Notes under the pieces: generated by a model
What the model saw: only the letters and a program-made list of their open reading frames with translations
What the model was told of the DNA's origin: nothing
The model's database searches: none
Translations under genes and position numbers: made by a program
Shown here: piece after piece, positions 59,814 to 64,000 of the stretch
Numbering within the stretch: position 1 is the stretch's first letter
Layout of the letters: every line of letters begins with the position of its first letter
Source of the DNA: Dehalococcoidia bacterium
Lineage (GTDB): Bacteria; Chloroflexota; Dehalococcoidia; DSTF01; JACRBR01
DNA length: 64,000 nucleotides
NCBI GenBank assembly: GCA_021731085.1
Contig: JAKFYB010000002.1
Coordinates: 1 to 64,000 of the forward strand
Direction of reading: 5' to 3'

Positions 59814-60389
59814 TTAGGTAGCCGGATCGAGCAGCTTCATTTGCTTCCGGAGCGAGTTCAGCGCGCGATGTTGAATCACGCGGATCGCCGCAACGCTCTT
59901 TCCGATAATCTCGGCAACTTCCTTGTAATCCAGATCCTCGATAAAGCGGAGGATGATCACCTGTCGTTGCTCCTCGCGAAGCAACAGGATGGCCGCATGG
60001 ACGAGTTCCCCGTCGGCCGTCTGCATATACGAGCTTTCCGGATCAATCCGCATTTTCTCATCGACGATGCCGTCATGAAGCTGCGACGACTCCTTCCTGG
60101 ACCGCAGATGACTTACGCCAAGGTTGTGCGCAATGCGTAGCAGCCAGGAGACGAACGGCGCTCCCCGGACCTGGTAGCGAGGTATCGCCTCCCATGCCCG
60201 AAGAAACGTCTGCGAGGTCAGATCCTCCGCTTCCGCGGCATTTCCAACCATGTAGTACAGATGGCGGTACACGCGTACGACGTGCCGGTCATAGAGCTCG
60301 GAGAACGCCTCTTCGTCGCGCTCGATCGCTCGAAAGACCAGCGGCGTGTCGTCGTTGGCACGCGGGATAGCGCTGTTAGCACCGACCAT
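59814..60389 (-). CDS. ECF-type RNA polymerase sigma factor
   Basis: A 191-residue sigma factor of two domains. Region 2 has EAFSELYDRHVVRVYRHLYYMVGNAAEAEDLTSQTFLRAWE, region 4 has REEQRQVIILRFIEDLDYKEVAEIIGKSVAAIRVIQHRALNSLR. The start at 60389 follows AGGAG at 10 bp; the longer frame to 60509 has no family support. It lies just upstream of the Tad operon and is the best candidate for its control. No anti-sigma gene is adjacent. Confidence 0.9.
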   Translation of the reverse strand: MVGANSAIPRANDDTPLVFRAIERDEEAFSELYDRHVVRVYRHLYYMVGNAAEAEDLTSQTFLRAWEAIPRYQVRGAPFVSWLLRIAHNLGVSHLRSRKESSQLHDGIVDEKMRIDPESSYMQTADGELVHAAILLLREEQRQVIILRFIEDLDYKEVAEIIGKSVAAIRVIQHRALNSLRKQMKLLDPAT

Positions 60390-60593
60390 GCGGAATGCAC
60401 TCCTGCAAGCTATGGGCGTCCATCGGGCAAGCTGGGATGGATTGACTGTCCGCCTGTTCCCGTAGGGCCGCGCTCTGCGTGCCCTTCGGGGATTCCCTGC
60501 TCGCTCCATGGAGGATCGGCAGTCGTACTAGGCTGCTTGAGGGTTAGACTCGGGAGGAGTCGGATTCTTACGGCCAGTCTGCGCGGCGCTGCA

Positions 60594-62627
60594 TTAGCTG
60601 GCGCGCTCGTCGGGCGAATCGACGTTCTGATGCCCGAATCCCATGTCTCGTGGCATCATCTCCGTCAGTCGCCGTGGACGGTCCTCGGAGGCGGTTCCGG
60701 GCTGCGGCAACACGAGGGGCACCTGCGGCGGTTCGGGCTTCTCACGCAAGACGTTGGGGACGTCCTCTGCTTGAGTCGGCGAAGATATTGGAGTTGGCGC
60801 GGGCCTGAGCTCGGCCAATGCTTCCTCGGTAGGCACGCCTTCCGGAAGCAACTTGAATTCGAAGGTGTGCCCGCCGATCGAGAAACTCTCGCCAGGCTCG
60901 AGCATTTGCCATCCGCCTGGAGCGCCTTCGAACGCTATGGTCGTCAGGCGCGTCATGCGGTGGTACATGAGCGTCCCCTTCCGAATCCACAAGCGGGCTT
61001 CTTCGGAAGCGAGTGAAGCATCGTCGATGTGCACCGCGCACGTGTCGCCGTTGCCCAAACTCACCGGTTTTCCACCCACGGGATAGAGGCTTCCCGCATC
61101 GGATCCAGACCGCGAAATCAACACACCCAGAGCCTCGCCGATGTCTTGCACAGTCGGAGCGCCCACGGCATCAGGCTCGACGCCGACTTCGTCCTCGGCT
61201 GCCGGAGTGCCGCGGCTAATGGTTCGGTGCTGCCCAGTCCAAGGGGTCACGCGCTGGTCAGGCGAGACCATGGCCAATGTCGGTCCGGAGGTCGTGCGAA
61301 TGCGCTGAATCACTGCGTAGCCGATGCCGATCAGCGCCACAACGGCCACGATCGCCGCTAACGGGAGGATCGGCAGGCCCCCGCCGTCGGTCGCTGACGC
61401 AGGATCATCCACCACCACAGGCACCGCTGGCACGGAGGTAAAGCTCACGCCATCGCCATCGATAATTTGATCGCCCACCGTGACGGCGACGCGCAAGGTG
61501 TGTGAGCTTTCGCCGAATTTGTCCGGATCGTACGTATAGGTGAAAGGCGCCTCAGTTGTTTCGAAGACGTTGACATCGTCAACGTAGAACGCAGCTTTCG
61601 TGATCGGCTGGGTACCGCCCGCGGTCACCGTTACATCACGCGGTTCGGTGATTGACTCACCAGCGGAGAGCCCCGTTACAACCACATTGGGCGCGACGAA
61701 GCCGGGCCCAGGTACGAACGGCGCCGTCGCTGAGCCAGTGCGCCCACCTGCGTTGACCTGCAGATCGATCGTCGATGAGGGCTTACCCGTAGCCGCTGCC
61801 GCGTCGATCGTAACGAGATACTGGTTCTGCAGGATGCGCCCGATGCTGGCGTACACACCCTGCAAGTCTCCGGATCCGGGAGCCTCCAGGTACTGACCGT
61901 TCGTTGCGTTCGCGAGTTCGATGAGGAACGAGGAATCCTCAATCGCAGCGCCCTGCGCGATTGTAAACACGGGCACGCCGGACAGCGAAGCCGTCGTAAG
62001 GGCGTCCTGCGCGGTGATGCCGGTGACGATTGCGTCAGCAGCGCCGTCAGTCAGCATGATCATCGCGCGTCGTAGCGAGGTCGAGGTGGCCGCCTGGCGA
62101 ATCGCAGCGTCCGTTGCCTTGTACGTTTCCGTCTGCCCGCTCGAGGTTAGTGAATTGATCGCAGCAATCGCCGTTTCCTTGTCTGTCGTGTAGTCCTGCT
62201 GCAACGTTACTGAGTTCGCGAAACGCATGACGGCGACCCGGTCCTCGGGCGCAAGCCCGCGGATAAAGGAGATGGCTGCGGCCTTCGCCTGCGCCAGTCC
62301 TTCGCCCTCAGTGCTTCCGCTCGTGTCCATGAGCATCAGCACATCAAGCGGAATCGTCTGACTGGAGGCGAGCTCAGCTTCTGTGACAGCGGCCGGCTGG
62401 CCATCAACCGTCGCGACAAAGCTGTCCTTGGTGAGACTGCCGGGCGTTGTCGCGGTTGTGTCTTCAATGTTTACTACCGCTTGCACCAGGGGGTATTCGA
62501 GCTCAGTGATATTGGCAACAGTGACTCGGACAGCGTCCTGACCGCTGACAACTGACGCAAACGTCAGCGCCGCTGCACCTGCGATGGCGCTACAAAACAC
62601 GGACCGCAGCCGTCGGGTGCCAACCAT
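60594..62627 (-). CDS. Membrane protein with external VWA domain and cytoplasmic FHA-like domain
   Basis: A 677-residue protein. A signal peptide (SVFCSAIAGAAALTFASVVS) is followed by a VWA domain with intact MIDAS (MLMDTSGSTEGEG), then Ig-like regions (about 300-420), one membrane segment (ILPLAAIVAVVALIGIGYAVI, about 420-440), and a cytoplasmic FHA-like fold (SLGNGDTCAVHIDD). The phosphothreonine-binding Arg and Ser/His of FHA domains are absent. A Pro-rich tail ends it. AGGGG precedes ATG at 62627. It may connect surface adhesion to the inside of the cell and is placed next to Tad pilus genes. Confidence 0.88.
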   Translation of the reverse strand: MVGTRRLRSVFCSAIAGAAALTFASVVSGQDAVRVTVANITELEYPLVQAVVNIEDTTATTPGSLTKDSFVATVDGQPAAVTEAELASSQTIPLDVLMLMDTSGSTEGEGLAQAKAAAISFIRGLAPEDRVAVMRFANSVTLQQDYTTDKETAIAAINSLTSSGQTETYKATDAAIRQAATSTSLRRAMIMLTDGAADAIVTGITAQDALTTASLSGVPVFTIAQGAAIEDSSFLIELANATNGQYLEAPGSGDLQGVYASIGRILQNQYLVTIDAAAATGKPSSTIDLQVNAGGRTGSATAPFVPGPGFVAPNVVVTGLSAGESITEPRDVTVTAGGTQPITKAAFYVDDVNVFETTEAPFTYTYDPDKFGESSHTLRVAVTVGDQIIDGDGVSFTSVPAVPVVVDDPASATDGGGLPILPLAAIVAVVALIGIGYAVIQRIRTTSGPTLAMVSPDQRVTPWTGQHRTISRGTPAAEDEVGVEPDAVGAPTVQDIGEALGVLISRSGSDAGSLYPVGGKPVSLGNGDTCAVHIDDASLASEEARLWIRKGTLMYHRMTRLTTIAFEGAPGGWQMLEPGESFSIGGHTFEFKLLPEGVPTEEALAELRPAPTPISSPTQAEDVPNVLREKPEPPQVPLVLPQPGTASEDRPRRLTEMMPRDMGFGHQNVDSPDERAS

Positions 62628-62768
62628 CACATTCGCCCCTTCTGTCGCCACCGGAGACCTACTCACGAGTCTCTTCGGTGCATCTGTCAAGAACGCATTG
62701 GGCGACCTTGACACCACCTTGTGCCGGTGGCAGGATCAACGCCTCAGCCGAGGGCGTACCGAAGCGAC

Positions 62769-62958
62769 GGGCCATCAAACGGCCCACGCTCTCAGAATCA
62801 GTATCGACAGTTCTGGCGACGCGTTGAGCGTCGCCGCGCGCCAGGCAAGGATGCGAGGCACGCAGCTCTTCCTCTCCGCCAGGCGGAGAGTCTTACATCG
62901 GGGCTACGGGCCCAGGGGACGCGCGTTCAGGAGGCGGGGCCTGGTTCGCGTCCCCTGG
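62769..62958. other. Cluster of hairpins in the divergent 512-bp intergenic region 62628-63139
   Basis: The gap between the VWA gene and the AAA ATPase gene holds no convincing gene. Four inverted repeats follow each other: GGGCC/GGCCC (62769-62785), GGCGACGC/GCGTCGCC (62815-62835), CTCTCCG/CGGAGAG (62872-62890) and CCAGGGGACGCG/CGCGTCCCCTGG (62912-62958, 12 bp perfect). It could be a structured leader RNA or a regulatory region; the strand cannot be decided. No confident match to a known riboswitch is seen. Confidence 0.5.
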
Positions 62959-63139
62959 CCCCAACCCGCTTCCAACCTCTGAGACTTACTCGCCAACGCG
63001 CTTCACCTTTGCTTCCCTCAACCGATACTTCCTTCGGAGGACGCTGGAAGAGCCGCTGCTCGTCTGTCTGTTCGTGCGTCAACCAGGTTTGCCCAAGAGG
63101 ATGATCCGCATTGTCGCTGCCCAATGAGGGGACACCTGT

Positions 63140-64000
63140 ATGACGACAGAAACCGCCACCACGCGCTCCCTCGTTGATGCCGCCGACAACGTGAGCGGCC
63201 GCGCCGAAGACGTCGGGGGCGCTCCATTCGTCCCGCAGCCACAGACCGTCGACGAAACCGGCCTCGATTTCTCGATGATCCTCGATCTCGTTGTGAAGTC
63301 GATCTACTTCGCCGGACGGCCGGCGGCCCGCCAGATCTCTGCGCAAATAGCACTGCCATTTCCGGTTGTCGATGAGATTCTGACGTTCATGAAGCGCGAA
63401 CAAATGGCCGAAGTCGTCGGCAGCTCGGGCATGGGCGAGCAGTTGTATCAGTACTCTCTGTCTGCCAAGGGCATGGAAAAAGCCGAGGAAGCCCTCTCCC
63501 GTAATCACTACGTCGGCCCGGCCCCGGTGCCATTCGAGCTTTACCTCGAAGTCCTGAAGGCACAGTCGATCCGGAACATTCGCCTCACGCCCGAAAGCGT
63601 TGGCCGTGCCGTGTCCCACCTCGTCCTCGACGACTCGGTGACGGAGGCACTTGGCCCCGCCGTTAACTCTGGCCGCTCGATGCTCATTTACGGTGGCTCG
63701 GGTAACGGCAAGAGCACCATCACGGGCGCCGTCGGACGAATGCTCCCGGGTGAAGTCCTGATCCCGTACGCCATCGACATCAACGGCATCATCGTCAAAC
63801 TGTACGACCCACGCATCCACCAGGAGATCGCGCCGGATAAGGCGGACCGGCGCAACATGGAGCCGAATGGCGCGAGTGCTGAACGCCGCCGCGACCGCCG
63901 CTGGGTCGTCGCAAGGCGCCCAATGATTACGGCCGGCGGTGAGCTCACCTTGGCTGAACTCGAACTGAAGTACTCGCAGCAGTCCAAGTTCTACATCGCG
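63140..64000 (+). CDS. AAA-type ATPase next to Tad genes, C-terminus cut by window edge
   Basis: The first 287 residues are present. A winged-helix-like N-terminal region (about 45-110) with LVVKSIYFAGRPAARQISAQ is followed by an ATPase domain with Walker A IYGGSGNGKST (about 185-195) and then VGRMLPGEVLIPYAIDINGI. Similar ATPases occur with Tad-type loci in several phyla and are mostly uncharacterised. GAGGGGA lies 8 nt before the ATG. It is transcribed away from the VWA gene and continues beyond the window. Confidence 0.85.
   Translation, partial: MTTETATTRSLVDAADNVSGRAEDVGGAPFVPQPQTVDETGLDFSMILDLVVKSIYFAGRPAARQISAQIALPFPVVDEILTFMKREQMAEVVGSSGMGEQLYQYSLSAKGMEKAEEALSRNHYVGPAPVPFELYLEVLKAQSIRNIRLTPESVGRAVSHLVLDDSVTEALGPAVNSGRSMLIYGGSGNGKSTITGAVGRMLPGEVLIPYAIDINGIIVKLYDPRIHQEIAPDKADRRNMEPNGASAERRRDRRWVVARRPMITAGGELTLAELELKYSQQSKFYIA

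Follow-up and report, generated by a model that had tools for sequence, protein, structure and literature searches.

What is encoded in the gap between two divergent genes of a Tad pilus locus, where four inverted repeats follow one another within 190 bp? The gap lies near the end of the window, the whole 64,000-nt stretch of Dehalococcoidia DNA that was analysed, and is flanked by a minus-strand VWA gene and a plus-strand ATPase-like gene. The preliminary description had named its neighbours, from sequence inspection, as a VWA membrane protein gene and an AAA ATPase gene in a Tad locus, and this is correct: the first has the expected Pfam domain, a Walker motif was seen in the product of the second (a Pfam search of which gave no match), and tadA/B/C/Z/rcpC-like genes adjoin the gap, with T2SSE, T2SSF, RcpC and ParA/response-regulator domains. 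The true start of the VWA gene is likely the ATG at 62628, ahead of the signal peptide. The Tad locus also contains an ECF sigma factor gene (59814–60509, minus strand), nearest to the BldN family at a score below the cut-off. A second copy of the ATPase-like protein, 45% identical, is encoded in the same genome (G000:C6:81531-82778), without the hairpin described below.

All four of the repeats are present, the first two with perfect arms of 5 and 8 bp as described. The arm of the third, given as 7 bp, is actually 8 bp with a loop of 3 nt, and the 12-bp arm of the fourth lies within a repeat of 16 nt matching at 94% (62908–62962). RNA folding of 62769–62965 gave −103.3 kcal/mol on the plus strand (z −4.05; 0 of 200 shuffles were as low) and a z of −4.48 on the minus strand. 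In a scan across the 64 kb, this segment ranked third among 427 windows of 197 nt, in line with the claim of much more structure than in other gaps, though four other 197-nt windows (37051, 52351, 24451 and 50101) have fold z values of −4.4 to −5.3, comparable to that of the segment. The features of the region are collected in Table 1.

Table 1. Features in and beside the gap between the VWA and ATPase-like genes (positions in the window)
Feature	Position	Strand	Basis or remark
VWA domain membrane protein gene	60594..62717	-	Pfam PF00092
Sigma70-type promoter TTGACA-N17-CAGGAT, start expected near 62743	62708..62736	+	Sequence pattern
First hairpin, GGGCC/GGCCC, 5 bp	62769..62785	+	Inspection
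Promoter-like element CTCAAC-N15-TCGATACT of the divergent VWA gene	62800..62829	-	Overlaps second hairpin
Second hairpin, GGCGACGC/GCGTCGCC, 8 bp	62815..62835	unassigned	Inverted-repeat search
CAAGGATG in the loop of a small hairpin, fits CsrA/RsmE consensus CANGGANG	62846..62853	+	Motif match
Third hairpin, CTCTCCGCC/GGCGGAGAG, directly 5' of core	62872..62890	+	Inverted-repeat search
Core hairpin: internal loop CUAC, long stem, apical hairpin CAGG-AGGCGGGG-CCUG	62900..62968	+	DNA and covariance-model search
Promoter-like element TTCACC-N14/15-CCGATACT just 5' of the ATPase-like gene	63002..63029	+	Sequence pattern
ATPase-like gene, next gene 3' of the core hairpin	63140..64000, on to 64558 beyond the window	+	

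When the 500-base gap was searched against the DNA of 40 relatives, matches fell almost only on 62900–62972, at 78–96% identity and within the same order. Of the four hairpins, the last, here termed the core, is kept across all families of the order and the others are not so kept. The first has no recognisable counterpart in the relatives, and at the position of the third they carry a hairpin of differing sequence; a consensus fold of f4-type sequences (A6) contained 4 double-change pairs, the majority of which belong to the upstream stem. Two covariance models of the core, the second built from 16 sequences, were both used for searches. The core was found in 16 of the 18 genomes of the window's order, including all 12 that are at least 90% complete. 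It is single-copy in each genome, weak second matches being the same hairpin read on the opposite strand, and its neighbours in all loci are VWA and/or ATPase genes. The first DNA match in G009 (L020, 28 bases beside an unrelated gene) is not a core; the genuine copies of f3 lie at L049 and L052.

Outside the order, the class sample gave the core only in G283, a genome of another family, on a contig with an f4-like locus; this occurrence may stem from mis-binning or transfer. The phylum sample contained no genuine core beyond the order. A wider spread in the phylum was rejected, the G609 candidates being chance matches to GGGGACAGGGGACA-type repeats and that in G037 a similar G-rich repeat. 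Named records with the core are metagenome-assembled Chloroflexi/Dehalococcoidia. A search of Rfam 15 gave no family above the gathering score at the core and only a tRNA in the window, the best scores at the core being those of sub-threshold microRNA models; a limited literature search found no account of such an element.

The 8-nt loop of the core, A[GA][GA]CGGGG (ARRCGGGG), is invariant and closed by GG/CC, and the stem varies between families. The compensatory changes that had been proposed for homologous regions were found: double-sided changes occur in 11 of the 22 core pairs, whereas shuffling gave an expectation of 2.8 and none of 500 shuffles reached 11. The underlying alignment of 16 sequences had been fitted to the model, a procedure that itself promotes covariation, and the signal comes mainly from three divergent sequences. 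Sliding the pairing partner abolished this signal. Within families f1 and f4 alone the core barely varies and covariation is weak. In f2 and f3 the same apical hairpin sits on quite different, still pairing stems, with GGGACCGGA/UCCGGUCCC, GGGGCCGGA/UCCGGCCCC and GGGGCCGAGGGAC/GUCCCUCGGCCCC around the unchanged loop; the first two, from f3, can be read directly without a fitted alignment. Read on the plus strand, G-U outnumbers A-C in the core by 27:3, and an unfitted alignment also gave mostly G-C to G-U changes. This excess of G-U on the plus strand indicates an RNA directed toward the ATPase gene. A coding sequence was rejected, as on inspection the cores show no reading-frame pattern, and so was a G-quadruplex in the core loop, as the G-tracts are lost in G012–G014.

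Three promoter-like elements surround the core in the window. In all 17 loci the core is preceded, at a distance of 161–430 nt, by a sigma70-type promoter of the TTGACA kind with a −10 box to match, and in the window three further hairpins stand between the two. The other elements are divergent and of one type, TCAnC-N14/15-CGATACT. On the minus strand, the CGATA element is matched in 12 of the 13 loci of f1, f4 and f61, the 13th (G003) having TCGATAGT on inspection; its −35-like part is included in the loop region of the second hairpin (TTGAGC). The pattern just 5' of the ATPase gene occurs in all 13 of these loci. The −10-like part of the divergent elements resembles promoters of the FliA/WhiG type. 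The genome encodes a FliA/WhiG-like sigma factor ∼2 kb from a csrA gene. In the f2 and f3 loci the divergent elements are absent and the hairpin is kept. A long-range pairing of AGTATCG with CGATACT was also considered and dropped, since two divergent promoter-like elements explain these sequences better.

The preliminary description had also likened parts of the segment to the c-di-GMP-I riboswitch. For the window this fails: RF01051 has no match above the gathering score in the window, nor any with E ≤ 10 between 62640 and 63140, and neither the core nor any other part of the window is scored by a c-di-GMP model. Two c-di-GMP-I-GGC riboswitches are present elsewhere in the window's genome (G000:C6:130643-130737 and G000:C12:77693-77782). 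At the locus itself, none was found in f1, the window's family, or in f3, both of which keep the hairpin. Five relatives (G015, G017, G283, G010 and G008) have a c-di-GMP-I riboswitch over the RF01051 cut-off downstream of the core on the same strand. The spacing in the first four is some tens of nucleotides, three of these four continue into a strong intrinsic terminator, and the gene that follows encodes, on inspection, a small LPxTG-like or secreted protein. In G008 (L086:6326-6758, minus strand) riboswitches stand both before and after the core in one leader, which precedes a gene for a large secreted protein, and G010 seems on inspection to have a decayed copy of the upstream riboswitch. 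A pairing of GGAGG in the core loop with the P1 strand CUCC of the riboswitch is possible in f2 and f4; the idea was dropped because the loop is equally conserved where the riboswitch is absent. Intrinsic terminators 3' of the core or riboswitch were found in six genomes (G001, G002, G009, G017, G283 and G010), only about twice the 2.75 in shuffles. In the window region the terminator scan was at chance level only, with no clear terminator after the core.

An RNA-like pattern of conservation, the strand, the upstream promoter-like element, the constant location and the riboswitch neighbourhood together point to a structured cis-leader RNA on the plus strand, in which the core would be a new module acting with c-di-GMP-I riboswitches and terminators or alone. 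Judged from sequence, we hold this reading at slightly better than even confidence. The combination of compensatory changes with a constant position upstream of related genes is that of a structured cis-regulatory leader RNA. The earlier proposal of a new structured leader RNA or riboswitch is upheld as far as it concerns a structured, pilus-linked RNA that shares the strand of the ATPase gene and shows compensatory changes; the conserved part is narrower than the run of hairpins, since only the last is conserved order-wide.

The RNA would start at the sigma70-type promoter and extend at least through the core, an interchangeable stem presenting the invariant loop. It would act in cis as the leader part of the next gene or genes, joined by c-di-GMP-I riboswitches and intrinsic terminators where relatives keep these; in the window's family the core would stand alone upstream of the ATPase gene. 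An exchangeable stem with a fixed loop is the usual look of protein- or RNA-binding hairpins, and the core is probably such a docking hairpin. We infer that the region is transcribed and that docking of a protein or another RNA at the loop alters read-through into the ATPase gene or, in the relatives, into c-di-GMP-controlled genes. Leader read-through may not be the main source of ATPase gene expression, because this gene appears to own a promoter-like element downstream of the core.

The main rival, which we consider fairly unlikely, is a stand-alone small RNA of ∼200–300 nt that would end at or just after the core and act in trans via the G-rich loop. It would account for the dedicated sigma70-type promoter at every locus, for the hairpin or terminator that G001, G002 and G009 have no more than ∼50 nt beyond the core, for the U-rich tails directly after the core in G003, G004, G008 and G011, and for the separate promoter-like element of the ATPase gene in f1, f4 and f61. 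Several f1 and f3 genomes are among those with such terminator-like sequences. A trans-acting RNA is, however, hard to reconcile with a core that is continuous with the riboswitch leader in f2, f4 and f61 and that is found in cis with this one locus throughout.

An improbable alternative is that the RNA is a target or sponge of CsrA (RsmA), which would bind both the CANGGANG loop and the core GGA, thereby linking carbon-storage control to pili. CANGGANG is a tested Rsm-binding motif (PMC6849547); it occurs in 9 of the 16 transcripts tested and is visible in G008 too, and an apical hairpin with GGA is present in all loci. csrA was found in all 18 genomes of the order, against 48 of 393 in the class sample, with mostly two to four PF02599 matches per genome in the order and at least two in all but three. 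The two copies in the window's genome lie at G000:C7:63880-64029 and G000:C5:146510-146662 (L079 and L080), and the reading frames around them include no obvious FliW or flagellar gene. A sponge of the CsrB/RsmZ type was rejected, since GGA is near the shuffle means in most transcripts and higher in only a few. In the core, moreover, the GG is base-paired and the A alone lies in the loop. CsrA does not account for the invariant CGGGGCC; the core is missing from ∼30 genomes of other families that do have CsrA, and G283 (76% complete) has the core and no CsrA match. Given the lack of GGA enrichment and the additional invariant bases of the core loop, CsrA is at most a weak candidate partner of the RNA, a lead only.

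A double-stranded DNA operator is very unlikely: in f1 and f4 the block does have a divergent promoter-like element on either side, but the stem changes track RNA pairing and show G-U on just one of the strands, f2 and f3 keep the hairpin with a wholly replaced stem sequence and without the divergent elements, and the G008 core is inside a riboswitch leader. That the core is itself a new small-molecule aptamer is equally hard to credit, for although it adjoins riboswitches and terminators in relatives and its internal loop CUAC and apical loop are conserved in f1 and f4, it is a single hairpin with a replaceable stem, no junction or pseudoknot was found in it, and the internal loop varies in f2 and f3. 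The suggestion of a new riboswitch class finds little favour, as a single stem with an invariant loop resembles a docking hairpin more than it does a ligand-binding pocket.

The core hairpin is a candidate for a new RNA family, narrowly distributed and placed in a setting that is itself known. Its closest known counterpart is the c-di-GMP-I riboswitch (RF01051, GEMM-I), its same-strand neighbour in the five relatives; the 5' side of the core in f1 and f4 (GGGCUACGGG) resembles part of the riboswitch P2, whereas the core forms a single long hairpin and lacks the three-helix aptamer. The two c-di-GMP-I riboswitches in the G008 leader recall tandem riboswitch leaders, such as the tandem c-di-GMP riboswitches of Bacillus that appear among the references of PMC11218506; here, a distinct conserved hairpin lies between the riboswitches and persists where they are absent. 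CsrA/Rsm-binding RNAs (CsrB, RsmX/Y/Z and CsrA-bound mRNA leaders) share the CANGGANG hairpin loop, and the order's genomes have CsrA, but here GGA motifs are scarce and show no enrichment, and additional bases of the core loop are invariant.

How Tad pili are regulated in Chloroflexota, and c-di-GMP signalling there, have been little studied, and an RNA module linked to c-di-GMP riboswitches would offer a handle on attachment control in uncultured bacteria, with an invariant loop sequence usable for partner capture. The locus may also illustrate how a riboswitch leader loses its aptamer while retaining another part. We propose tentatively, at somewhat less than even chance, that a new RNA receptor module binding a protein or RNA partner combines with c-di-GMP-I riboswitches in a two-input control of Tad pili. 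If so, the window's family would have the new module without the riboswitch.
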